Source of the DNA: a virus
Virus record (IMG/VR): IMGVR_UViG_3300043775_004247
Span: 1-26,165 of that record
Direction: 5' to 3' (one strand)
DNA: 26,165 nucleotides
The notes below the pieces were generated by a model. It did no database searches. It was given only the letters and a program-made list of their open reading frames with translations, and was not told the DNA's origin. This document shows, one piece after another, positions 5,137 through 26,165 of this stretch. The position numbers and the translations under genes were made by a program. The stretch's first letter is position 1. Each line of letters starts with the position of its first letter.

Positions 5137-5144
5137 TATTTATG
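5137..5144 (-). promoter_or_regulatory. T4-type late promoter-like box upstream of the 531-aa fibre gene
   Basis: The minus strand reads CATAAATA, ending 7 nt before the ATG at 5129. It overlaps the stop codon of the upstream 300-aa gene. Function is inferred from the shared motif. Confidence 0.55.
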
Positions 5145-6042
5145 CAATATCGTATAATCTAATGTACTTTGTGTTGCCGCCTATTGTTATTGGTATAAAG
5201 TCATTGATAGCAGATATCGATGTTGCGGTAGACTGTGTACCAGCAAATGTAACAGTGTTGAAATTTAATGCATTAGCATATACTGTGCCGTTACTACTTA
5301 CGCTACCCGCTACTGTTACTTCTGATGTTATGTCTGTGGTACCTACACCGACTTTACCAGTGGAATCAACGACGAATGGTGTACTGTCGGGCTTTGAATC
5401 ATCAATACGAATAGCATAACCACTGCCTTGCTGTACTATTCTTAAAGCATCTTCTGTTGTGTTTGTATCAATTAATACCGCGCTCGCTGTACTTATCTTT
5501 GTTTCAATATATGTCGTTTCACCAAAGACAGAAAGGTTTTTAGTTATTGTAACGTTTTCACTAATAGTAAGATCGCCACTTATTGTACCGCCTGTGAGCG
5601 ATAAATATGTGCTATACGCATAATCACGGGTAGCATATGTAGCACTGTTAGCATTAACGTTACTATAAACTGAATCCCAATTAGCACTTGCAGTATTAAC
5701 GCTGCTATAAACTGAAACAGCATTAGCACTGTTAGCATTAACGTTACTATAAACTGAATCCCAATTAGCACTGTTAGCATTAACGTTACTATAAACTGAA
5801 TTACCATTACCTATGCTATCATAAGCACTATTCCAATTAGCGCTCGCTGTATTAACGCTGCTATAAACTGAAACAGCATTAGCACTGTTAGCATTAACGT
5901 TACTATAAACTGAATTCCAGCTTGCACTATTTGACGTTACATTACTGAGTATATTATCATATTTTGGTAATACTGTGTCAGTACCGGTTTGAGTAAGAGA
6001 GCCGCGAAGCTCAATATTATTTGTGTAGATTTCTTGTGGCAT
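5140..6042 (-). CDS. Short Trp-repeat fibre protein (300 aa)
   Basis: Probable fibre or fibre segment. After a short head (1-30, with YTNNIELRGSL), residues 34-136 are very regular 14-residue units such as VYSNVNANSANWDS. In alternate units the Trp is replaced by Ala, and one unit is shortened by four residues (around IGNGNS). The region 145-240 is beta-rich with serial GDLTISENVTITKNLSVFG and VGVGTTDITSEVTVAG phrases typical of phage fibre shafts. The last 21 residues (NDFIPITIGGNTKYIRLYDI) match in pattern the C-terminus of the 761-aa fibre. The ATG at 6042 has an AATAAATA box 9 nt upstream. The DNA repeats are nearly identical, so copy number may vary between isolates. Confidence 0.78.
   Translation of the reverse strand: MPQEIYTNNIELRGSLTQTGTDTVLPKYDNILSNVTSNSASWNSVYSNVNANSANAVSVYSSVNTASANWNSAYDSIGNGNSVYSNVNANSANWDSVYSNVNANSANAVSVYSSVNTASANWDSVYSNVNANSATYATRDYAYSTYLSLTGGTISGDLTISENVTITKNLSVFGETTYIETKISTASAVLIDTNTTEDALRIVQQGSGYAIRIDDSKPDSTPFVVDSTGKVGVGTTDITSEVTVAGSVSSNGTVYANALNFNTVTFAGTQSTATSISAINDFIPITIGGNTKYIRLYDIA
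5635..5943 (-). repeat. Highly conserved 42-bp tandem repeats with an exact 67-bp duplication
   Basis: This region encodes residues 34-136 of the 300-aa fibre. The DNA repeats with a 42-bp unit (for example the unit starting at 5642). Positions 5693-5759 recur exactly at 5849-5915, an offset of 156 bp. The high DNA identity points to recent expansion by recombination or slippage. Confidence 0.85.
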
Positions 6043-6051
6043 ATGTATATA

Positions 6052-6059
6052 TATTTATT
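6052..6059 (-). promoter_or_regulatory. T4-type late promoter-like box upstream of the 300-aa fibre gene
   Basis: The minus strand reads AATAAATA followed by TATATACAT and the ATG at 6042, a 9-nt spacing. No Shine-Dalgarno is visible between the box and the start. Confidence 0.5.
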
Positions 6060-6097
6060 CTCTAGCACACGTAAAATATTGTGAATTTAATATTTTA

Positions 6098-8383
6098 TTA
6101 AAAATTCCACAAACGTAATGCGCGGTCTGTACCATTAATTTTTAAAATTAAAAAATCTCCACTTGCAGTTAATGGTGTTATGATGTTTTGTACTGTCGCA
6201 TTACTTAATTCTATATTATTAGCATATATATTACCGGATGTCCATATATGATTTGACGCACTTATTTCTCCATTAACCGTGAAATCTTTATTTGGGGTTG
6301 ATGTTTTTACACCAACGTTTGGAAATGTACCGTTATTCCCTCCAATATGAAAAACTTCTACTCCTGCATCAATGTCATAAAAAGATGCTATGTCTCCGGT
6401 TCCACTATTTCCTATCCATGCTGCTGGTCCCGATCCTACATGTACAACACTCAGGGCACTTGTTGTAGTAAAGATGGTATTAGCAAAAGTCTGTGTACCG
6501 GAACACGAAAGGTCACCATATATAGTAACATTTTGCTGAAATAAAGTGTTACCTGTTACTGTACCGCCTGCGAGCAGTAAATAATTACCCTGATTATCAT
6601 ACGCAGATTGCCAATTAGCAGAGTTAGTGATGACAGTACTATGTGCACTCCACCAGTCATCTGAGCTAGCTGTTACTTCTTGTTCTGTTGACACCCAACC
6701 CGAACTTAATTGCCGTACAGTAGTATATGTAGCATCATATCGTGTTGTGTCAACTGCACTTCCCCATAAACCGCTGTTTGTCCAGACTGTTGTATTAGTA
6801 TCGATCCATGATGCGCTGTTTACTGCAACGGCACTCTGTACTGCGAGGTTGTCAGCACTTTGTGAGTTAAAGCTCGTGTATACGCTCACCCAACTACCAC
6901 TGTTAGCATATACATTAGAGTATGTATTCTCCCAATTTGCTGAGCTAGCACTAACTGTTGTATATGTAGATTCCCAGTTAGCTGTTAAATTTTTTATATC
7001 TGTACCTGAATAACCCCAATCAGCAGAAAATGTATTAACAGTCGAGTATGAATCACTCCAAGACCCGGAATTACCTCTTACTGTAGTGTATGTATTTTGC
7101 CAGTTACCGGTAAGAGCGCGTACCTCATTATCACTTGAACTGTTCCATGTGGCCGAATTTGTGTATACTGTTGAATATGTATCTTGCCAGTTACCTGACA
7201 GACTAGCAATTTCAGGTATGCGTGCTACTGCATTATTCCAGTCAGCGGAATATGTCTGTGTAATTGTAGATGCTTCTGTCCACCTACCGCTGTTACTTCT
7301 TACATTAGTGTATGTATTTTCCCAGTTGCTGGTCAGTATTTTAACATCAGTTCCGTTATATGACCAGAATGCTGAGTTTGTTTGTACGGTACTATATGTA
7401 TCCTCCCAATTGCCTGTAAGTGATATAAGGGCAGTATCGTTAGATGCCCATTGTGCTGAATTGTTTTGTACGGTGGTTGATATATCAATCCATGTACTAC
7501 TGTTACTATTAACATTAGTGTATGTATTTTGCCAATTACCCGTAAGTGCTCTTACACCTAAATCCGTAGAATTATCAATCGCCCATTGTGCAGAATTAGC
7601 GTTTACTATAGTGAATGTATCATTCCATTTTCCACTGCTACCATTAACGTTAGTGTATGTGTTTTGCCAGTTACCAGTAAGCGATATGAGGGCTGTGTCG
7701 TTAGATGCCCATTGTGCAGAATTATTTTGTACATTAGTGTACGTTGATGCCCATTGTGCTGAATTGTCTTGCACATTAGTGTACGTACTTTGCCAGTTAC
7801 CAGTAAGCGTTATAAGGGCGGTATCATTAGATGCCCATTGTGCTGAATTAGCATTTACAATAGACGAAGTACCTGACCATGTACCGGAGTTAGCTTGCAG
7901 TGTATTTGTGTTATCATTCCATAGTGGTGAATAATTATTAAAAAGAAGTGAAGTATAATCCCAAGTAGCAGATTCACTCCGCATTGTTGACTCCGTACTG
8001 TCCCAACCACTACTATTAAGTGCAAAGAGACTCTCCACATCATTCCATCCCGCACTATTAGCGAGCATAATACTGTATGTATTATCCCAATTTTCGGTAT
8101 CGGTACCGCCCCAACTTGCACTAAGAGCTCTTACTGTTTGATATGTAGTTTGAAAATTACTACTATTGGCGATGTAAGATGTCGATGCATTTCCCCATGC
8201 ACTACTATTTGAGTAAACAATTGTCTGTGTTTGGTTATAAACGTTGTTTAATAGATCAATAATCGGTACACGTATTTCAGATTTTAGACCGCTATCCTGA
8301 TATCCTACAAAATAGCTTGACAGTAATAATTGACTCTTGTCACGCTTAGTAAAATCAGAAAATCTCTTAGTGCTAAATGCCAT
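6098..8383 (-). CDS. Long Trp-repeat tail fibre protein (761 aa)
   Basis: Probable main long-fibre subunit. The N-terminus (1-50, FSTKRFSDFTKRDKSQLLLS then YFVGYQDSGLKSEIRVPI) resembles virion-attachment segments of fibre proteins. Residues about 60-596 contain roughly 35-40 units of the 14-residue repeat W-x3-Y-x2-V-x3-S-x2, with interruptions such as ALISLTGNW and VRALTGNW. From residue 597 the protein turns beta-rich: GGTVTGNTLFQQNVTIYGDL, then GNNGTFPNVGVKTSTPNKDF, VNGEISASNHIWTSGNIYAN, and a closing GDFLILKINGTDRALRLWNF. This is a shaft-to-tip arrangement without a recognisable S74 chaperone. The ATG at 8383 is preceded by a perfect TATAAATA box. Part of the repeat region (6611-6767) is nearly identical to the 461-aa gene, implying exchange between fibre genes. 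Confidence 0.8.
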   Translation of the reverse strand: MAFSTKRFSDFTKRDKSQLLLSSYFVGYQDSGLKSEIRVPIIDLLNNVYNQTQTIVYSNSSAWGNASTSYIANSSNFQTTYQTVRALSASWGGTDTENWDNTYSIMLANSAGWNDVESLFALNSSGWDSTESTMRSESATWDYTSLLFNNYSPLWNDNTNTLQANSGTWSGTSSIVNANSAQWASNDTALITLTGNWQSTYTNVQDNSAQWASTYTNVQNNSAQWASNDTALISLTGNWQNTYTNVNGSSGKWNDTFTIVNANSAQWAIDNSTDLGVRALTGNWQNTYTNVNSNSSTWIDISTTVQNNSAQWASNDTALISLTGNWEDTYSTVQTNSAFWSYNGTDVKILTSNWENTYTNVRSNSGRWTEASTITQTYSADWNNAVARIPEIASLSGNWQDTYSTVYTNSATWNSSSDNEVRALTGNWQNTYTTVRGNSGSWSDSYSTVNTFSADWGYSGTDIKNLTANWESTYTTVSASSANWENTYSNVYANSGSWVSVYTSFNSQSADNLAVQSAVAVNSASWIDTNTTVWTNSGLWGSAVDTTRYDATYTTVRQLSSGWVSTEQEVTASSDDWWSAHSTVITNSANWQSAYDNQGNYLLLAGGTVTGNTLFQQNVTIYGDLSCSGTQTFANTIFTTTSALSVVHVGSGPAAWIGNSGTGDIASFYDIDAGVEVFHIGGNNGTFPNVGVKTSTPNKDFTVNGEISASNHIWTSGNIYANNIELSNATVQNIITPLTASGDFLILKINGTDRALRLWNF
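6596..8206 (-). repeat. Long array of 42-bp (14-residue) Trp repeats
   Basis: The array spans most of the 761-aa fibre. Successive Trp residues are usually exactly 14 apart (for example WQNTYTNVQDNSAQ, then WASTYTNVQNNSAQ, then WASNDTALISLTGN), with a few units of 15-17 residues. Hydrophobic positions 1, 5, 8 and 12 follow 4-3-4-3 spacing, as in two heptads of a coiled coil. Confidence 0.85.
6611..6767 (-). repeat. 157-bp near-identical block, copy B (partner 383-539)
   Basis: This segment of the 761-aa fibre matches 383-539 with three mismatches and no gaps. Flanking sequence is clearly more diverged, as expected for gene conversion or recombination between two fibre genes about 6 kb apart. 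Confidence 0.9.
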
Positions 8384-18131: not shown

Positions 18132-19058
18132 TTAAATCTCTGATAATTTTATTAAACAGGAATAACAGTTTATTTCCTGATCAATAACAAAGCTTGATCT
18201 ATAGATATATTCCGCAAGTGTAATAAGATAGTTTTTCTTTCGTTCAATATCTTGCTCTTTTGAATCAATATAGTTAAAGAGGTCTCGCATTAAAGCTACA
18301 TAATCACTACTAAATGTGTGTTCGTTTTCAATAAGAACTTTACGAATATGATTAATGTTCTTTTTTTGTATTTCTTTAAAAATCAGCTCGAGCGTTTCAT
18401 TATTTTTTAAGTTATCAAGCTTAAGAGTACCGGTGGATGAATTCTTCTGTAGTTCATTGATGCACTTTCTTAGATCAGGGTAATTATTTTTTATTAACTC
18501 AACAAGCTTAGGTTTCTGGTCATCTGTTACACTAATATTTTCTGATTTGAGAACTACAACACACCGCTTTAGGACGCTTTCAAGTGTTGGTGTTAAGTCA
18601 AACGATTGACATCTGCTTTGAAGAGCTGGAATTACTCTATATTTGTAATTTGCAGTTAAAATAAACCGTGTTAACTTAGCATATTCCTCCATTGTGTTGC
18701 GTAATACACGCTGTGCATCAATAGTAAGACCATCACACTCGTCAAGTATTATAACTTTTGTTTTTCCATCGAAACTTCTTGTCTGTGCGAAGCTCGTCAC
18801 CTTAGTACGTATAGTATCAATACCATTCTCATCACTTGCGTTAATGTACAAATACTGACACTGTAGGATATCATTAACAATGATCTTTGCGAGCGATGTC
18901 TTACCGAGACCAGGCGTTCCGATAAAGAGCAGATTGGGTATCTCTTTTTTCTCTCTTACAGACGTAAAGAATTCACGTACAGAATCTGTACAAACATAAG
19001 CATCTAGTGTAGCAGGTCGATATTTCTCACACCATAAGGAATTAAAATCATATGCCAT
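18132..19058 (-). CDS. gp44: Sliding-clamp loader ATPase subunit, T4 gp44 / RFC small subunit-like (308 aa)
   Basis: AAA+ ATPase that loads the DNA polymerase sliding clamp. The opening WCEKYRPATLDAYV is the standard RFC box. Walker A is GTPGLGKTS (47-55) and Walker B is VIILDECD (102-109, DExx form). Sensor 1 is in LTANY (134-138), and the SRC motif with the arginine finger is at 148-150. The C-terminal third is a helical collar-like region. The length fits T4 gp44 (319 aa). Its partner gp62-like subunit and clamp are not in the window. It starts 3 nt after the dUTPase stop, so the two are probably cotranscribed. No TAAATA box at late-gene spacing precedes this pair, consistent with earlier expression than the structural genes. 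All key catalytic residues are present. Confidence 0.95.
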   Translation of the reverse strand: MAYDFNSLWCEKYRPATLDAYVCTDSVREFFTSVREKKEIPNLLFIGTPGLGKTSLAKIIVNDILQCQYLYINASDENGIDTIRTKVTSFAQTRSFDGKTKVIILDECDGLTIDAQRVLRNTMEEYAKLTRFILTANYKYRVIPALQSRCQSFDLTPTLESVLKRCVVVLKSENISVTDDQKPKLVELIKNNYPDLRKCINELQKNSSTGTLKLDNLKNNETLELIFKEIQKKNINHIRKVLIENEHTFSSDYVALMRDLFNYIDSKEQDIERKKNYLITLAEYIYRSSFVIDQEINCYSCLIKLSEI

Positions 19059-19061
19059 AAA

Positions 19062-19526
19062 TTATTTGCCTGATGAACCGAATCCTTTTTCACCTCTATC
19101 ACTTTCAATTACTTTACCCCATTCAACAGGCATATGAATATTAAAATACAATACAAATTGCGCAATTCTATCACCTTTTTGCACTTTATAATCTACATCA
19201 GTATTATTGTACAGTTTAATCCCGGCATCGCCTCTATATCCATTGTCGATGATGCCGGGGTGTGCAGAGACACCATGCTTAAAGCCTAACCCGCTTCTTG
19301 ATTCAACTTTTACCCAATATCCTTCTGGAATAAAAGCAAACTTTAGCCCTACATCTACCACAGCACTACCCCTTGCAGGTATAATAACTTCCTCTACACT
19401 GTACACATCGTACCCAGTATCGCTTTCATGGTTTTTACTTGGTAGTTTTGCATCAGGGTGTGTTTGCTCAAATTTCATTATCGGCAAATATTGAACAACT
19501 TTATCTTTCGTATCATTATAATTCAT
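19062..19526 (-). CDS. dut: dUTP diphosphatase (dUTPase)
   Basis: Trimeric dUTPase that hydrolyses dUTP to dUMP and pyrophosphate, limiting uracil in phage DNA and feeding dTMP synthesis. All five motifs are present (numbered from the ATG at 19526). Motif 1 is SDTGYDVYS (35-43) and motif 2 is SRSGLGFKHG (76-85). Motif 3 is IIDNGYRGD (92-100), with catalytic Asp 94 and Tyr 97. Motif 4 is GDRIAQ (118-123) and motif 5 is RGEKGFGSSG (144-153), with the base-stacking Phe. The reading frame extends upstream to a TTG at 19562, but the ATG at 19526 (154 aa) is preferred. An ATG at 19478 (MKFEQTHPDAKLP) also fits the family's usual N-terminus and gives 138 aa. No strong ribosome site separates these choices. 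Confidence 0.95.
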   Translation of the reverse strand: MNYNDTKDKVVQYLPIMKFEQTHPDAKLPSKNHESDTGYDVYSVEEVIIPARGSAVVDVGLKFAFIPEGYWVKVESRSGLGFKHGVSAHPGIIDNGYRGDAGIKLYNNTDVDYKVQKGDRIAQFVLYFNIHMPVEWGKVIESDRGEKGFGSSGK

Positions 19527-19573
19527 GTACGCTATTATAATTTTTGTTGTAAGGAAAATCAATGTGGTATTTT

Positions 19574-20254
19574 TTATTCAAAAAATTTTATTTTGCCTTT
19601 TCTCGCTAACTGTTTAAGATATACAAGTTCATTAACATTGTTGTGTGATCTTGTGATTGTCTCTGTATCTCTATAATAATGCTTTGTTAGCATACCATCG
19701 TAGCCTGTTACGTAAATTTCTTCTTGTGGAAATTTATTAATAATAAAATCAAGTGTTAAAATGCCGTTTGTAGGTTTAATTTTTGTATTATCTTTACATA
19801 TTGCTTTTGTTAACTCAGTGCGTCTGTTTGCACTACAATAAAAAACATTCTTTACGTGTGGGTGATGCAGCATAAAAAACTGTAGACATCTTTCATGCAT
19901 ATATCTTACCATATTATGTTTTTCAATAAACATACCCTGCACAAAAAATGCTTTCTTTATTCTTTCTGACAAAAAGTTTTCTGTTTCCATGAAATTATCA
20001 TAATCATAAATATCAGTAAAGATAACATCTTTAAACCCCGATAGTTCTGTGTCTGTATATGCAATTGTATGGTTCGCTAAATGAAAATGTTGTCTCCATG
20101 TCACTCTAAACATGTCCGTTTTTGTTCCTGTATATTTTTCATATCCCGTTATCTTACACTGACCCATTCTCACTACATAGTCAAAACTGTCTATTTTATG
20201 ACCATTTTCTTTGCATAAAACAGTACTGCCGTTACCTATTACAATTATTTTCAT
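19574..20254 (-). CDS. Family-29 (sialyltransferase-like) glycosyltransferase, tandem copy 1 (226 aa)
   Basis: Predicted glycosyltransferase with the layout of CAZy GT29. A sialylmotif-L-like region lies at 3-53 (IIVIGNGSTVL, then HKIDSFDYVVRM and GYEKYTGTKTDMFRVTW). A motif-S-like region lies at 161-187 (PTNGILTLDF ... IYVTGYDG). A motif-III-like HYY is at 192-194, and the motif VS pair H-x4-E is at H204/E209. In GT29 these motifs bind CMP-sialic acid and provide the catalytic His. No membrane anchor or signal peptide is present, so the enzyme would act in the cytoplasm. This copy differs most from the others in residues 54-66 and 101-112. It is last in the transcription order and lies 47 bp upstream of the dUTPase start. 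Donor and acceptor cannot be told from sequence. Confidence 0.82.
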   Translation of the reverse strand: MKIIVIGNGSTVLCKENGHKIDSFDYVVRMGQCKITGYEKYTGTKTDMFRVTWRQHFHLANHTIAYTDTELSGFKDVIFTDIYDYDNFMETENFLSERIKKAFFVQGMFIEKHNMVRYMHERCLQFFMLHHPHVKNVFYCSANRRTELTKAICKDNTKIKPTNGILTLDFIINKFPQEEIYVTGYDGMLTKHYYRDTETITRSHNNVNELVYLKQLARKGKIKFFE

Positions 20255-20269
20255 ATTTTACTTGTATTT

Positions 20270-20950
20270 TTATTCAAAAAATTTTATTTTACCTTTTCTC
20301 GCCAACTGTTTAAGATATATAAGTTCATTAATACTATTATGACATTTCGCATATGTCTCTTTGTCTATAAAATAATGCTTTGTTTTCAACCCGTCATAAC
20401 CTGTAACGTAAATCTCCTCACGTGGAAATTTATTAATAATAAAATCGAGTGTTAAAATGCCGTTTGTTGGCTTAATTTTTGTATTATCTTTACATATTGC
20501 TTTTGTTAATTCGACATGCCCGTTTACATTGCAGTAAAAAACGTTTTTTACGTAAGGATGGTGTGACATAAAAAGCTGTAGACATCTTTCATGCATATAT
20601 CTTGTCATATTATGTCTTACTGAATACATCTTGGATAGAAATAGTGGTTTTTTTATTCTTCTTGAAAAGAAATTTTCTGTTTCCATGAAATTATCATAAT
20701 CATAAACTTCAGTAAATAATATATCTTTAAACCCCGTTAATTCAGTGTGCATAAGTGTTACAGTGTTGTCATTCACGCAAAAGCATTTCCGCCATGTTAC
20801 TCTAAACATGTCCGTTTTTGTTCCTGTATATTTTTCATACCCCTTCATTTTACACTGACCCATTCTCACTACATAATCGAAACCATCAATTTTATGACCG
20901 TTTTCTTTGCATAAAACGGTACTGCCGTTACCTATTACAATTATTTTCAT
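20270..20950 (-). CDS. Family-29 (sialyltransferase-like) glycosyltransferase, tandem copy 2 (226 aa)
   Basis: Paralogue of the neighbouring copies with all the same motifs: GNGS and the motif-L block at 3-53, PTNG and GYDG of motif S (161-187), HYF (192-194), and the H-x4-E pair in CHNSINE (204-209). The differences are concentrated in residues about 54-66 (RKCFCVNDNTVTL), 101-111 (PLFLSKMYSVR), 141-146 and 188-203. The first and last blocks are nearly invariant. The 15-nt spacer to copy 1 is identical to the spacer to copy 3, giving a 696-bp tandem unit. The Cys-containing segment KCFC is shared with copy 3 only. Confidence 0.82.
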   Translation of the reverse strand: MKIIVIGNGSTVLCKENGHKIDGFDYVVRMGQCKMKGYEKYTGTKTDMFRVTWRKCFCVNDNTVTLMHTELTGFKDILFTEVYDYDNFMETENFFSRRIKKPLFLSKMYSVRHNMTRYMHERCLQLFMSHHPYVKNVFYCNVNGHVELTKAICKDNTKIKPTNGILTLDFIINKFPREEIYVTGYDGLKTKHYFIDKETYAKCHNSINELIYLKQLARKGKIKFFE

Positions 20951-20965
20951 ATTTTACTTGTATTT

Positions 20966-21646
20966 TTATTCTAGATATTTTATTTTACCTACTCTTGCAA
21001 GTCGCTTAAGGTATATATGTTCATTAATATTATTATGACATTTCGTATATGTCTCTGTATCTCTAAAATAATGCTTTGTTAGCATACCGTCATAACCTGT
21101 TACGTAAATTTCCTCACGTGGAAATTTATTAATAATAAAATCAAGTGTTAAAATGCCGTTTGTAGGTTTAATTTTTATATTGTCTTTACATATTGCTTTT
21201 ATTAATTGTGCGCGATTATTTGCATTGCAGTAAAAAACGTTCTTTACGTAAGGATGGTGCGACATAAAAAGCTGTAGACATCTTTCATGCATATATCTTA
21301 CCATATTATGTTTTACTGAATACATCTCGTATAGAAATGGTGGTCTTTTTATTCTTCTTGAAAAGAAATTTTCTGTTTCCATGAAATTATCATAATCATA
21401 AATATCAGTAAAAAGTATATCTTTAAACTCTGTAAGTTCAGTGTGCATATATGCGACAGTGTTGTTATTCGCGCAAAAGCATTTCGGCCATGTTACTCTA
21501 AACATATCCGTTCTTGTTCCTGTATATTTTTCATACCCCTTCATTTTACACTGACCCATTCTCACTACATAGTCAAAACTGTCTATTTTATGACCGTTTT
21601 CTTTGCATAAAACGGTACTGCCGTTACCTATTACAATTATTTTCAT
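20966..21646 (-). CDS. Family-29 (sialyltransferase-like) glycosyltransferase, tandem copy 3 (226 aa)
   Basis: All GT29-like motifs are intact (GNGS, PTNG, GYDG, HYF, H204/E209 in CHNNINE). It is closest to copy 2 in the first variable block (PKCFCANNNTVAYMHTEL against RKCFCVNDNTVTLMHTEL) and in EMYSVKHNM. It matches copy 1 at GYDGMLTKHY and Ser 23, and shares the ending GKIKYLE with copy 4. This patchwork suggests exchange among the copies rather than simple stepwise duplication. It is preceded by an 18-nt spacer (actgtattatgtgtatct on the plus strand), unlike the 15-nt spacers of the other junctions. Confidence 0.82.
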   Translation of the reverse strand: MKIIVIGNGSTVLCKENGHKIDSFDYVVRMGQCKMKGYEKYTGTRTDMFRVTWPKCFCANNNTVAYMHTELTEFKDILFTDIYDYDNFMETENFFSRRIKRPPFLYEMYSVKHNMVRYMHERCLQLFMSHHPYVKNVFYCNANNRAQLIKAICKDNIKIKPTNGILTLDFIINKFPREEIYVTGYDGMLTKHYFRDTETYTKCHNNINEHIYLKRLARVGKIKYLE

Positions 21647-21664
21647 ACTGTATTATGTGTATCT

Positions 21665-22345
21665 TTATTCTAGATATTTTATCTTACCTGTCTTTGCTAA
21701 TTGCTTAAGATATATTAGTTCATTAATATTATTATGCGATATACCATATTCATTGCTAGTCTTAAAATAGTATCTTGTTATCGATCCGTCATAGCCTGTT
21801 ACGTAAATTTCTTCTTGTGGAAATTTATTAATAATAAAATCGAGTGTTAAAATACCGTTTGTAGGTTTAATGATACTATCATCTTTACATATTGCTTTTA
21901 TTAATTCGACGCGCCCTTTTGCATTGCAGTAAAAAACGTTTTTTACGTAAGGATGATGTGACATAAAAAGCTGCAGACATCTATCGTGCATATATCTTGC
22001 CATATTATGTTTTTTACTATGAAAACTTCTGACAAACCTCGGTTTTTTTATTCTTCTTGAAAAGAAATTTTCTGTTTCCGTGAAATTATCATAATCATAA
22101 ATATCAGTAAATAATATATCTTTAAACTCTGTAAGTTCAGTATCTATATATGTAATTATGTTGTTTGCTTGATGAAAAAGCTGTTTCCATGTCACTCTAA
22201 ACATATCCGTTTTTGTTCCTGTATATTTTTCGTGTCCTTTTATTTTACATCGACCCATTCTCACTACATAATCGAAACCATCTATTTTATGACCATTTTC
22301 TTTACATAAAACGGTACTGCCGTTACCGATTACGATTATTTTCAT
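21665..22345 (-). CDS. Family-29 (sialyltransferase-like) glycosyltransferase, tandem copy 4 (226 aa)
   Basis: First gene of the array in transcription order. The frame continues 13 codons upstream, but the ATG at 22345 aligns exactly with the other three copies and has GATAAATA 5 nt upstream, so I use it. Motif-L and motif-S regions are intact, and the H-x4-E pair is in SHNNINE. It is the most divergent copy: KQLFHQANNIITYIDTEL in the first variable block, PRFVRSFHSKKHNM in the second, and SITRYYFKTSNEYGI before the catalytic His, where copies 1-3 have a K-H-Y motif. Here the motif-III His is replaced by Tyr (RYYF), a possible change in activity. Confidence 0.82.
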   Translation of the reverse strand: MKIIVIGNGSTVLCKENGHKIDGFDYVVRMGRCKIKGHEKYTGTKTDMFRVTWKQLFHQANNIITYIDTELTEFKDILFTDIYDYDNFTETENFFSRRIKKPRFVRSFHSKKHNMARYMHDRCLQLFMSHHPYVKNVFYCNAKGRVELIKAICKDDSIIKPTNGILTLDFIINKFPQEEIYVTGYDGSITRYYFKTSNEYGISHNNINELIYLKQLAKTGKIKYLE

Positions 22346-22350
22346 ACTTT

Positions 22351-22358
22351 TATTTATC
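22351..22358 (-). promoter_or_regulatory. Late promoter-like box for the glycosyltransferase array
   Basis: The minus strand reads GATAAATA, then AAAGT, then the ATG at 22345, a 5-nt spacing. It is the only such box in front of any of the four copies, suggesting that the array is read as one transcript. A T7A6 tract (22360-22372) separates it from the divergent plus-strand box. Confidence 0.6.
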
Positions 22359-22393
22359 ATTTTTTTAAAAAAGTATATATACACTAAATGTGT

Positions 22394-22401
22394 TATAAAT
22401 A
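22394..22401 (+). promoter_or_regulatory. Perfect TATAAATA late promoter-like box for the plus-strand gene at 22412
   Basis: The plus strand reads TATAAATA, ending 10 nt before the ATG at 22412. It forms a divergent pair with the box at 22351-22358, as at 17471-17527. Confidence 0.65.
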
Positions 22402-22411
22402 ATTTTCGCGT

Positions 22412-22882
22412 ATGGAAGACGAACCAAAAGTTACAGTTGAAGATTTACTAGCTCAATTACAAGCTCCCGTTGTAACTGAAAGACAGATAGAGGCTCCTAG
22501 ACCACCTCTCCGCAAGGAAGATTTAGAGGACTTTGTAATACAAAAAAGCAGTACCCTTGTTGATGAGACACTTGGCATGATAACAAACGTAAGGGATTAT
22601 ATTACTTCAGCTCCAGAGAGTAAGGATGTTTCTTCAATAGCAGAGTTAATAAACGCTGCATCTTCCGCTATAGAAACGTTAAACAAAATAGTTATATCGA
22701 ATAAAAAGAACGAAACATCTATTAAAGTCAAGGAAATGGATGTAGCTGCTAAGAAAGAAATACATACTGCGGAAGGTAATCTCAAAGTAGCACTTAAGAG
22801 GGAAGAGCTATTTAGTATGTTGTTTAACGAAGCAAAGCCTGTTGAAGCTCAGGTTGTAGAAACTAAGCAAATCGAAAACTAA
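22412..22882 (+). CDS. Helical protein, possibly small terminase (gp16)-like (156 aa)
   Basis: Mostly helical, charged protein. Residues about 35-105 form two predicted helices (EDFVIQKSSTLVDETLGMI, then SSIAELINAASSAIETLNKI) separated by a short turn with APESKDV, followed by a long Lys/Glu-rich helix (VKEMDVAAKKEIHTAEGN). This helix-turn-helix-plus-tail pattern, with a conserved-type stretch of small residues before TLNK, resembles small terminase subunits of T4-like phages (gp16), which regulate the packaging motor. The match is by pattern only, and a scaffold or other virion protein is also possible. The gene is on the plus strand with its own TATAAATA box. It ends in a 4-bp overlap with the stop of the 1054-aa gene on the other strand. 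Confidence 0.7.
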   Translation: MEDEPKVTVEDLLAQLQAPVVTERQIEAPRPPLRKEDLEDFVIQKSSTLVDETLGMITNVRDYITSAPESKDVSSIAELINAASSAIETLNKIVISNKKNETSIKVKEMDVAAKKEIHTAEGNLKVALKREELFSMLFNEAKPVEAQVVETKQIEN

Positions 22883-25800
22883 CCGCCAACTGATGGTTTG
22901 CCGGATTTATCAGCTTTCTTATATTTTTCACAGCTAAACAGCTGCTCAACAATCTTCTGTTTAATCTCTTCAAGTAATTGCTTAAATGTTTTCTTCATGT
23001 TCTTAAGTAATTTAAGAATGTTAAATTGATCGAGAATACGTTCGACAAATTTTGTAACCATATCTATAACCATTTGTTTTACATCTTTAAACTTCATTTT
23101 AAGAAGTGCTTCAAGATCTGGGAATGTAATTAAGGGTAATTCAAAATTACAAATAATTGAGTAAAGCTGTTCTTGCATTTTTATTAAACCTGTTAAGCTC
23201 GTAGGTGGCCCGGATGTGGCGACACTTGCTGCAAGGCTAAGTAAATCTTTAATAGAGCCGAGATCTACAGAAGGTAATATAGAAGGTATTTTTAACTCTT
23301 CTAAGAAAAGACCTGGATCGAGTGCTTCTAAAAGCTCTGATGATGTAGGCAGCAATCCACCTGCAAAATCAGCACCGCCTACTAGACCGCCAAGCTGATT
23401 AAGACCACCTGCTGCATCATCATATGCACTAGCCCATGGATTTTCTGCTAAAGGATCTGTAAAATTAGTAAACTGATCACTTATCGCACCCGCTAGTATA
23501 TTAGTTGTATTCTCACCACTAAAGACACCTTGAAGTAATTCGCCACCCAAGTCCGCAAATTGGGAAGGTATACCGAGGAGCGCTAATTGTGAGGATGCGG
23601 TTGCAGGTGATGATGTATCAATAGCGTTTGTTAGTGCAGGTGTCGCTGATGTTGAGAGTCTTTGTATAATAGACTTACAAGGATTAAGACCTGCAGATAT
23701 ACGTTTCAATAAGTAATCTACTTTTTGATATACACCTTCAACATTAATAAAGAATGTATATATATCAGATTTCTGTCTGTTACTGTATTTACCCGCTCCA
23801 AGGCTATCTAATAGTGTTGTCATTTGTGCTAGTACATCGGTGCTTGATTGTGCTTGCTCGTTCTGTGCTGTCTGTATGCTACTGACACCAGGCGCTGATA
23901 CTGCTCCTGAACCTTGTTGCTCGGTAGGTGTTGATGATGGGGTACTCGCTACTGGTGCACTTTGCTGTGTTTCTACTGGTACATCAGTAAAGAAAGCATC
24001 GTACTGACCTGCCGGCTGACCACCTTCTGACGGTAACTCTGATTCTATTATTTCAAGACCACGCGAATCATACTGTGTCGTCAAAGCAGCGGGTGCAGTT
24101 GCAGGTTGCGGTGCTGGTGCTGTTCCTGCCTGATCTTCATTTGCTGTATCTTCAAAAAATGCATCAGTATCTATAACTGTTTGGCCTCTTATAGTTCTTG
24201 TAGCTGCCGCTTCTTCTGCTGCAGTTACATTGCTATTTACGTTTCTACTATTTATTATTGCTTGTGCTGCTGCATTCACCCCTGCATTGTTGATAGGCTG
24301 GGTAGGTTGTGTACCCTGTACGTTGTTTAAAAATGACGTGAGACCGCTACGTGTTAAGGACCCATTCGGTACTCTAGTTGTTGGATCGAGTTGGAATGTG
24401 AGGCTATGTCCACTCCCACCGGTAACTCGTCTACCTGCTTCTGTTGTTACTATAGGTATACCGAGGGTTTGTGCTAATCGACCCGATACTTCACCCCACC
24501 CATTTTCTGCTGGTCCATTGTCACCGATAATAGCACGTACTGTTGTTCCGTTTTTATTTGTTACATAAACAACTGTACCTAAAGGATACTGCGCACCTAG
24601 TGAAGAATCATAAACATATCTTCCGTTAGCTCCGCGTACCATAGTAGGCGCAACAACGAAGATATCTGTTTCACCATTAAGAAAACCATCCTGTACTCTA
24701 TATGATGTTTTAAATTGACCGATCGCTGGTCCAGAGTATATCTTGGCGTTTGGTGAACCATCCCAATCGAGTCTAGCTTCTGCAGCATTGAATGTATTGC
24801 CGTCTGTTGCTGCTGGTATATCGTCAATAAATTCTGAAGGGGGTAGTTCTGGTAATGTTGATGATTCTGTTATTATCTCACCACTACTTATCTCCGATCT
24901 AACTACACCACCGCTTGGTGTTATAATTTGCGAACCACGGCTTTGGAAGAAATTATTAATGATATCACCTTGAGCAGCTTTTTGTACTAAAGCCTGTGCT
25001 TGCGATAAGCTTGCAATCTCGTTTATCTCATTAAGAATACCGGCTGCCTGCTCTTCGCCTGACAATACAATAAAGTCTTTATCTGCAGCTGTTGCAGGTC
25101 TGTTGTCCCGGTAATTAAACCCAGATTTGTTACCTATATTACCAAGGTAACTTATATACCTAAAAATACGTATATCACTAATTGCTGCTTTTAACCCGAA
25201 CACCAATGCTTTTACACCGGTATTAAGTTTAACAAATGTAGGTAAATCATTAATTAAGTTAACACCATGGGCGAGGGTAGCATCAACCGCGAGATTTGCT
25301 TGTACTGTTGTATTACCATAAGCAACCGGTATAAGGTTACGTCTCATTAAAGCGGTGTTAAACTTGCTTAAATTAAACATTATATTTCTTGTTGTCGGGC
25401 TTATTTTGTTTTCTGAAGATGCAGAAAATGGTATTGGTACACCGTATCTTTCTTGTGTTATGTCGATAAGTGGCAACGTGGAATCGAGTTGCATATATTT
25501 GGTATTTGCCATCACACCAATACTGTCGCTTGTAACATCAAAGAAATTACTGAGGTCAGTGCTACTCAAGTCAGTAGGCACGACACCAATAGCTGATGAA
25601 CCTGCTTGCACTAAAGGGTTATTTGCAAGATTGCGTACACTTGTAGCTGCTTCAGTTGCGAACCTAGAGAGACCTTGTGGCACCAATCTCGATAAAAAGT
25701 TATTTGTGAACGAGCTGCCTGAAGTACTTTCTCGCGTAATCTCCCTGTATGAATATTTTTTTCTTACAACCCAGTGAAGAATAGAATCGTTCGCATACCT

Positions 25801-26043
25801 AAAGGATTTAAATAGACTTTCAACATTTGTAAAAAAAGAGTTAAGTTCTGATACCACATTACCAACTTTAAAGCTATTGCGGAAATTCGCAGCAGCTTTT
25901 ATTTCTTGTTCGCTTGCCTTATTACCAAGACCGCTTTTTAATTTTATTGACCCGTTGTTTAAATATACAAGAGATCCGGTAACATTAGCGTCAGCAATGC
26001 TCTGGCTACCTGTAATAACGTTTGTATTACCTCTCCTGCTCAT
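22879..26043 (-). CDS. Large tail/baseplate protein with an embedded GH75 (chitosanase)-like domain (1054 aa)
   Basis: Residues 1-420 are a structural region of unknown fold. Residues about 424-560 resemble glycoside hydrolase family 75: RLDWDGSPNAK, then GETDIFVVAP, a strand GTVVYVTNKNGTTVRAIIGD, and DNGPAENGWGEVSGRLAQTL then GIP. The acidic residues D508 and E518 (or E513) are candidate catalytic pair members. Residues about 570-740 are Ala/Pro/Gln/Thr-rich and probably a flexible linker. The C-terminus (about 960-1054) is strongly helical and Lys-rich (ILKLLKNMKKTFKQLLEEIK). Baseplate hubs often carry a wall-degrading domain (for example T4 gp5), so a hub or tail-lysin role is plausible. 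The ATG at 26043 overlaps the upstream gene (ATGA). Catalytic activity is unproven. Confidence 0.75.
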   Translation of the reverse strand: MSRRGNTNVITGSQSIADANVTGSLVYLNNGSIKLKSGLGNKASEQEIKAAANFRNSFKVGNVVSELNSFFTNVESLFKSFRYANDSILHWVVRKKYSYREITRESTSGSSFTNNFLSRLVPQGLSRFATEAATSVRNLANNPLVQAGSSAIGVVPTDLSSTDLSNFFDVTSDSIGVMANTKYMQLDSTLPLIDITQERYGVPIPFSASSENKISPTTRNIMFNLSKFNTALMRRNLIPVAYGNTTVQANLAVDATLAHGVNLINDLPTFVKLNTGVKALVFGLKAAISDIRIFRYISYLGNIGNKSGFNYRDNRPATAADKDFIVLSGEEQAAGILNEINEIASLSQAQALVQKAAQGDIINNFFQSRGSQIITPSGGVVRSEISSGEIITESSTLPELPPSEFIDDIPAATDGNTFNAAEARLDWDGSPNAKIYSGPAIGQFKTSYRVQDGFLNGETDIFVVAPTMVRGANGRYVYDSSLGAQYPLGTVVYVTNKNGTTVRAIIGDNGPAENGWGEVSGRLAQTLGIPIVTTEAGRRVTGGSGHSLTFQLDPTTRVPNGSLTRSGLTSFLNNVQGTQPTQPINNAGVNAAAQAIINSRNVNSNVTAAEEAAATRTIRGQTVIDTDAFFEDTANEDQAGTAPAPQPATAPAALTTQYDSRGLEIIESELPSEGGQPAGQYDAFFTDVPVETQQSAPVASTPSSTPTEQQGSGAVSAPGVSSIQTAQNEQAQSSTDVLAQMTTLLDSLGAGKYSNRQKSDIYTFFINVEGVYQKVDYLLKRISAGLNPCKSIIQRLSTSATPALTNAIDTSSPATASSQLALLGIPSQFADLGGELLQGVFSGENTTNILAGAISDQFTNFTDPLAENPWASAYDDAAGGLNQLGGLVGGADFAGGLLPTSSELLEALDPGLFLEELKIPSILPSVDLGSIKDLLSLAASVATSGPPTSLTGLIKMQEQLYSIICNFELPLITFPDLEALLKMKFKDVKQMVIDMVTKFVERILDQFNILKLLKNMKKTFKQLLEEIKQKIVEQLFSCEKYKKADKSGKPSVGG

Positions 26044-26165
26044 ATACTTGTATCACTATTTAATTGATTCTTTAGGTATGTCTTCATACATCTTATATCT
26101 GTATAATATTCACCGTTAATAAAATGATGCTCAACACCTATAATAAAATATATACCTAATATTTT
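26040..26165 (-). CDS. C-terminus of an upstream gene, possibly baseplate hub-related (partial)
   Basis: The minus-strand frame is open from the window edge to a TGA at 26042-26040 that overlaps the ATG of the 1054-aa gene. The 41 visible residues include FIIGVEHHFINGEYYTDIRC and end SDTSI. A closing strand pair of this kind (I-x-G-V-x-H-x-F-x-x-G-x-Y-x-T) is common at the ends of phage baseplate-hub and tail proteins (gp27/GpD-like). The gene order, just before a possible tail-lysin, fits a hub protein. Too little is visible for a firm call. Confidence 0.6.
   Translation of the reverse strand, partial: KILGIYFIIGVEHHFINGEYYTDIRCMKTYLKNQLNSDTSI
26057..26064 (-). promoter_or_regulatory. Weak late promoter-like box before the 1054-aa gene
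   Basis: The minus strand reads ATTAAATA, ending 13 nt before the ATG at 26043. It lies inside the coding region of the upstream gene, where AT-rich codons could produce it by chance. Confidence 0.3.

Follow-up and report, generated by a model that had tools for sequence, protein, structure and literature searches.

Four tandem GT29 genes in a T4-like phage

The window analyzed here, the whole 26,165-nucleotide stretch of IMG/VR record IMGVR_UViG_3300043775_004247, comes from a T4-like phage and carries on its minus strand, at 19574-22345, a tandem array of four genes for 226-residue paralogues of glycosyltransferase family 29 (GT29), the family behind animal sialylation. The copies, in order of transcription, are as follows.

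21665-22345, minus strand: GT29 copy c1, 226 amino acids, first transcribed; an upstream GTG start would give 239 amino acids; PF00777 score 39.1 bits
20966-21646, minus strand: GT29 copy c2, 226 amino acids; the copy modelled with AlphaFold
20270-20950, minus strand: GT29 copy c3, 226 amino acids
19574-20254, minus strand: GT29 copy c4, 226 amino acids; the end gene of the array

The open reading frames (ORFs) agree with the initial annotation, made from the letters alone, in that four frames are intact, with start-to-start distances of 699, 696 and 696 bp and intergenic gaps of 15-18 bp. Amino acid identity among the copies is 74-85% (77-85% to c2), and c3 is most like c2 except over its final ~12 residues, which match c4. 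The same array is present in a second IMG/VR contig, differing at 0 of 2,906 bp, and is thus not an assembly accident of a single record. A gp25-like baseplate protein and a gp44-like clamp loader likewise support the earlier description of the phage as T4-like.

Assignment to GT29, which had been proposed from the sialylmotif patterns, is upheld by both profile and structural comparison. All four copies match PF00777, the Pfam model of the family, at 39.1-46.8 bits (E 8e-10 to 3e-12) against a curated cut-off of 23 bits, and a profile built from 42 phage GT29 sequences matches porcine ST3Gal1 in the PDB at 2e-26 over the whole catalytic domain. The AlphaFold model of c2 (predicted local distance difference test score 83.7, predicted template modelling (TM) score 0.85) was compared with the PDB using Foldseek, where the best 30 matches are all GT29 structures (E<=1e-3) with moderate TM-scores of 0.52-0.63. 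Membership of family GT42 was considered and rejected. The Campylobacter enzymes CstI and CstII are cytosolic-type, have a catalytic His and a related fold, and are matched by the phage profile across the whole domain, but the match is weaker than that to GT29 both in sequence (1.6e-11 for CstII versus 2e-26) and in fold (4.3e-3 versus 1e-8).

With the animal enzymes (porcine ST3Gal1, 2WNB; human ST6GALNAC2, 6APL; ST8SiaIII, 5BO9) the phage copies share the sequence family, the GT29 fold, the scaffold of motifs L and S, the His and Glu of the VS motif (H-x4-E) and the equivalent of Asn-150 of ST3Gal1. They differ in their tandem arrangement, in lacking the long N-terminal extension and in lacking the disulfide cysteines that link motifs L and S, the equivalent positions being I3 and R177; residues ~100-133 of the phage copies have no counterpart in ST3Gal1, the Asn-173 position is Gly and the fourth residue of motif III is non-acidic. 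Since published bacterial GT29 sequences (PMC5811610), like the phage copies, have a short soluble form with neither these cysteines nor a transmembrane segment, the missing cysteines exclude the animal subgroup only. The remark in the initial annotation that the family is best known from animals is accurate, though these bacterial proteins are already known, as are annotations of single phage members, some of them named in UniProt; one such member, A0A6J5NLG3 of an uncultured Caudovirales phage, is a single copy with no array. The published account of GT29 origins, from bacteria to eukaryotes, does not include phages (PMC5811610).

Donor-site residues and block-wise divergence

Alignment to porcine ST3Gal1 (pST3Gal1) gives the correspondences N8=N150, G31=N173, T52=Y194, K160=Y269, H192=H302, H204=H319 and E209=E324. 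Two parts of c1 carry the residues of most interest.

22178-22345, minus strand: c1 residues 1-56, sialylmotif L region; N8 (=N150) kept and G31 (=N173) replaced, the same in all four copies
21680-21736, minus strand: c1 residues 204-222, including VS motif H204-x4-E209, the H319 and E324 of pST3Gal1; H-x4-E in all four copies

The donor-site motifs had been described as invariant, and this stands for the N150 equivalent and for the VS H-x4-E, but not for the N173 equivalent, which is Gly in all four copies, nor for the His of motif III, which is Tyr in c1. Membership of GT29 does not formally depend on the two asparagines. Against the motif III consensus (H/y)-Y-(Y/W/F/h)-(D/E/q/g) (PMC8433944), the set of copies reads HYFR, HYFI, HYYR and YYFK, so that the first three positions fit and the fourth does not; the YYF of c1 places Tyr at the position of H302. 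In ST3Gal1 H319 serves as the catalytic base, and the phosphate of cytidine monophosphate (CMP) is contacted by H302 (PMC4202792). Asn-170 of human ST3Gal1 affects activity (PMC8433944) and, given the three-residue offset in numbering, would be the equivalent of N173 in the porcine enzyme. Because the N173 equivalent is lost and no CMP-sugar synthetase was found in the contigs of this phage, the donor need not be sialic acid, and we avoid the name sialyltransferase for c1-c4.

The amino acid differences among the copies cluster at about residues 54-68, 101-112, 141-159 and 188-203. The discrete blocks seen initially are borne out by permutation, the variance of amino acid differences across 15-codon bins giving p=0.0002, while synonymous differences are not blocky (p=0.44); the blocks therefore reflect selection on the protein sequence rather than local mutation or homogenization. 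Because synonymous differences are evenly spread, gene conversion by itself is rejected as the source of the conserved blocks. A per-block dN/dS comparison, as the initial annotation had suggested, was run on the proportions of nonsynonymous (pN) and synonymous (pS) differences and revealed constrained motifs and divergent loops. Residues 1-53 have pN 0.026 and pS 0.304, residues 160-187 pN 0.015 and pS 0.370, and pN/pS for the motif L and motif S blocks is about 0.04-0.09; in block 188-203 pN is 0.330 and pS 0.435, and in block 101-112 the two are about equal (0.436 and 0.455), with no ratio above 1 seen.

The near equality of pN and pS in block 101-112, together with the Gly at N173 in every copy and the replaced H302 equivalent in c1, would suit copies that are degenerate or non-catalytic, acting as sugar-binding or decoy proteins or drifting after amplification. 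We consider this improbable: each copy has an intact frame, the motif L and S blocks are strongly constrained, and the equivalents of N150, H319 and E324 are invariant in an 11-sequence alignment of the subfamily that spans different phages. Block 54-68 starts two residues past the Y194 equivalent, block 141-159 stops just short of the Y269 equivalent, and block 188-203 includes the H302 position and stops just before the H319 equivalent, so that three of the four blocks, as aligned, abut or contain substrate-contact positions of ST3Gal1, which fits variation on the acceptor side. Since the core is kept and the loops beside the substrate site have diverged, the copies probably use a common donor and act on different acceptors.

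Insertion of the array and a second GT29 cluster

The array occupies an inserted segment, the surroundings of which are as follows.

19571-22390: inserted segment, about 2.82 kb; absent from 26/26 comparable relatives, with an empty site in L054
22387-22396, minus strand: left junction ATAACACATT, a 9/10 near-copy of the right junction; weak, may be chance
19561-19570, minus strand: right junction ATACCACATT, the empty site reading ATACCAGGTT; weak, may be chance
22412-22882, plus strand: p156, the divergent left neighbour; T4-late-promoter-like TATAAATA at 22394-22401
19062-19562, minus strand: dUTPase, the right neighbour; PF00692 1.4e-24
18132-19058, minus strand: gp44-like clamp loader, PF21328 Gp44_lid; T4-like backbone

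The clamp-loader gene was used to find 29 loci (L053-L081), one of which (L053) belongs to a near-identical phage with the array. In 26 others p156 and the dUTPase gene lie side by side, with GT29 between them in 0/26, some of these loci being near-copies of each other; they include L054, whose clamp loader is 96% identical and whose site is empty. The insert is flanked by the imperfect 10-bp repeat formed by the two junctions, which may be chance. Copies c1-c4 are monophyletic (support 100/99), and sites informative about their quartet are clustered, none of 5000 shuffles reaching so low a number of runs; over the last 12 residues they favour another pairing than in the middle, and segments have thus been exchanged between copies. 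The insertion of the array is recent and lies in one branch of this T4-like phage group; its copies derive from a phage GT29 subfamily and multiplied by tandem duplication. Promoter and terminator scans of the window gave chance-level results, and TATAAATA is no more frequent in the window than expected by chance.

The T4-like background and the adjacent dUTPase gene bring to mind glycosylation of phage DNA bases against restriction, as performed by the T4 glucosyltransferases, and DNA-hypermodifying viral glycosyltransferases have been reported (cited in PMC12619734). Such a role for the GT29 enzymes is highly unlikely, because the family that includes thymidylate synthase and dCMP hydroxymethylase (PF00303) occurs in 0/8 relatives, four of which are contigs of 158-225 kb, the genome in the window itself being incomplete. 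In addition, the known substrates of GT29 enzymes are glycans, and the dUTPase gene adjoins p156 in relatives devoid of GT29 too.

A near-identical record, the 50-kb contig IMGVR_UViG_3300044644_002471 (G001), extends past the window and reveals a second set of GT29 genes.

L011:11800-14595 and L011:16464-16659, contig IMGVR_UViG_3300044644_002471: second GT29 cluster

This cluster contains four GT29 genes that have diverged (E 7e-6 to 3e-17) and a ninth GT29 gene cut by the contig end, in the order GT32-like, AsnB-like amidotransferase, four GT29, GT8-like (PHROG 28018) and the cut ninth copy. It begins about 2 kb beyond a gene resembling long tail fibres, whose best PHROG is 8215 (1.2e-39), with matches also to several PHROGs of the long-tail-fibre distal subunit. 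In another phage contig (G018) these tail genes recur in unchanged order, followed by GT32-like, AsnB-like, five GT29 and GT8-like genes, and three one-to-one orthologous GT29 pairs link this set (locus L014) to the second cluster of G001 with support of 100/98 or better. As these paralogues have long been kept in both phages, we argue that they have distinct, non-redundant roles. The view that a four-copy set in a phage is unusual therefore understated the case, as at least eight copies are present in this phage and similar sets recur elsewhere. An orthologous GT29 pair (L011:11800-12438 and L014:2194-2829) reads VARSIS in motif L; neither donor asparagine is present, nor is the His of motif III, and judged from these residues the pair may have altered or lost catalysis. 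Radical S-adenosylmethionine (SAM)-SPASM proteins, possibly maturases, are encoded near two GT29 sets (L014:6649-7527 and L095:1298-2149).

Gly-type GT29 sets and candidate roles

PHROGs held no useful family for the window copies and tblastn of phage records returned two distant motif-L matches only, so that the broader distribution was drawn from IMG/VR, where a scan with a 14-sequence alignment yielded 40 loci, every one of which contains GT29 ORFs. Four other phage contigs (G018, LR756508.1, L041 and L095) carry sets of 4-7 GT29 genes. In the 484-kb, unannotated record LR756508.1 (L007, 316078-328212) four GT29 genes have NeuB among them, while L041 (G019:15299-23235) packs seven into about 6 kb next to NeuA and NeuB; L095 has four, with a tail-fibre-like ORF nearby. 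The four of LR756508.1 are monophyletic and those of L041 fall elsewhere in the tree, which indicates that GT29 expansion has been repeated. The LR756508.1 cluster also has GDP-mannose dehydratase-like and GDP-fucose synthase-like genes and is a large glycan-building cluster.

Genes for donor synthesis are frequent in these surroundings. At L042:2130-5573 neuB, neuC (401 bits, cut-off 235.9), a cytidylyltransferase and GT29 lie together, the cytidylyltransferase overlapping GT29, and operons of this type recur in the near relatives L044, L046 and L048-L050. A synthase for the 8-phosphate of 3-deoxy-D-manno-octulosonic acid (Kdo) scores above its curated cut-off near GT29 in L031 and L033, and a CMP-sugar synthetase was found in 0/14 GT29-less relatives. 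With neu and kds genes such common neighbours, phage GT29 is broadly tied to CMP-activated nonulosonic acids or Kdo. Diverged GT29 genes are thus numerous in several phage lineages, where neu or kds genes of the phage frequently accompany them; phages form a reservoir that belongs in the GT29 tree and appear to use the family to customize sugar coats.

Among 49 phage sequences the N173 position is Asn in 32, Gly in 14 and Ser in three. The contigs in which Gly dominates are those of the window phage (with G001), G018, L016/L017, L095 and Stenotrophomonas phage DLP6. The GT8-like family PHROG 28018 occurs in 5/5 Gly-type lineages, 0/22 other GT29 contigs and 0/15 GT29-less relatives (Fisher 1.2e-5 by lineage), a contrast noticed in these data rather than preset, among lineages partly related and contigs many of which are fragments. 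The PHROG 28018 gene directly adjoins GT29 in three Gly-type contigs and is one gene apart in L095; this co-occurrence offers a testable function for a PHROG now listed as unknown. Conversely, a CMP-sugar synthetase (E<=1e-3) is found in no Gly-type contig versus 18/28 others (p=0.013, or 0.044 with near-identical contigs collapsed), among lineages that are not fully independent. This link was first seen in hand-picked loci; to lessen the bias of that choice, a recount took in the other GT29 contigs of the 40-locus scan, leaving out near-identical contigs and most loci of a later scan. NeuA, NeuB and CMP-sugar synthetase were not found in the two contigs of this phage, both fragments, and the complete 168-kb genome of DLP6 also lacks a CMP-sugar synthetase. 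The split is not clean, as L041 has one Gly-type copy in seven together with NeuA and NeuB and without PHROG 28018, and L095 is mixed, with two Gly, one Asn and one Lys among its four copies. No bacterial relative emerged when 84,980 species genomes were scanned with motifs of the subfamily to which the window copies belong, a scan that reaches only sequences with those motifs.

In DLP6, AAY80_202 is a GT29 protein with the Gly substitution and an adjacent PHROG 28018 gene, as in the window phage; unlike the window copies, to which it is 23-24% identical, it is a single copy with no array and is annotated as hypothetical. DLP6 is thus an isolated phage carrying a minimal PHROG 28018/GT29 pair (L008:5295-6729, annotated 'nucleotide-diphospho-sugar transferase' and 'hypothetical protein'). 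In the literature searched, coverage of which was partial, no report was found of phage GT29 arrays, the Gly-type donor site or the pairing with PHROG 28018.

These observations suggest a scheme in which soluble, cytosolic GT29-fold enzymes would most likely move a CMP-activated acidic sugar to the end of a glycan. The GT8-like PHROG 28018 enzyme may build a stub, which the GT29 enzymes would cap, each copy using the same donor on a different acceptor. The donor probably comes from the host, no gene for its synthesis having been found, and could be CMP-Kdo or another CMP-ulosonate; every Gram-negative host that makes lipopolysaccharide (LPS) contains CMP-Kdo. We give about an even chance to the whole of this proposal, that soluble GT29-fold transferases cap glycans from a shared CMP-acidic-sugar donor and that their acceptors were diversified by duplication. 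Several points weigh against it. Gly at the N173 position and the variation of the H302 equivalent across the subfamily mean that the donor may not be CMP-N-acetylneuraminic acid (CMP-Neu5Ac) and that catalysis might be altered; both contigs of the phage are fragments, so that donor-synthesis genes could lie elsewhere; block 101-112 falls in the stretch with no pST3Gal1 counterpart, and the blocks are placed relative to the acceptor face by alignment; and the window array is not beside fibre genes, lying between p156 and the dUTPase among baseplate and tail genes.

Possession of at least eight paralogues with a constrained core and diverging loops points to selection for diverse glycans, be it on the virion or on the host surface. 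Because the older cluster sits by tail fibres and is kept in two phages, fibre or tail proteins of the phage would be, by a small margin, a more likely target than a glycan of the host envelope. It is nonetheless plausible, if short of probable, that the enzymes modify host LPS, capsule or exopolysaccharide, blocking rival phages or freeing progeny from receptor debris, with copies fitted to different strains. Their sporadic presence within the phage group fits a host-adaptation gene, and Gram-negative bacteria universally use CMP-Kdo in making LPS. A reading of this kind was given by Iyer et al. 2021 (PMC7824862) to the polymorphic clusters of paralogous glycosyltransferases in cyanophages. 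Those surface-polysaccharide clusters of cyanophages and jumbo phages likewise place several paralogous glycosyltransferases, polymorphic between relatives, in lytic phages, whereas the present paralogues are all of one family, their core frozen and their loops diverging; a text search of that paper turned up neither sialic acid nor sialyltransferases. Besides the tail-fibre genes that adjoin the older set in both phages, the tail-fibre-like ORF near the L095 set speaks against a host-glycan target, and genes for a flippase, a polymerase or an acyltransferase were not noticed in the parts read, where no systematic search was made.

Virion glycosylation has been reported for mycobacteriophages (cited in PMC12619734). 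A more specific version of our proposal, to which we hold only tentatively and with some doubt, is that the Gly-type proteins, marked by Gly for N173, a regular PHROG 28018 partner and no CMP-sugar synthesis of their own, form a distinct phage GT29 class with a donor or glycan unlike those of all characterized sialyltransferases. Its arrays, with acceptor loops that diversify, would act as a combinatorial glycan-capping set for the virion, the window array being recent and still recombining.

Two further observations concern the tail genes. At 5140-8383 the window encodes tail proteins that contain repeats rich in Asn and Ser, of the NSANWDSVYSNVN type, and are possible glycan acceptors. At its other end (25450-26165) the N-terminal part of a 1054-residue tail protein has 71% DNA identity to L009:5777-6498, in phages that are otherwise 98-100% identical, which points to a local swap in the tail protein.

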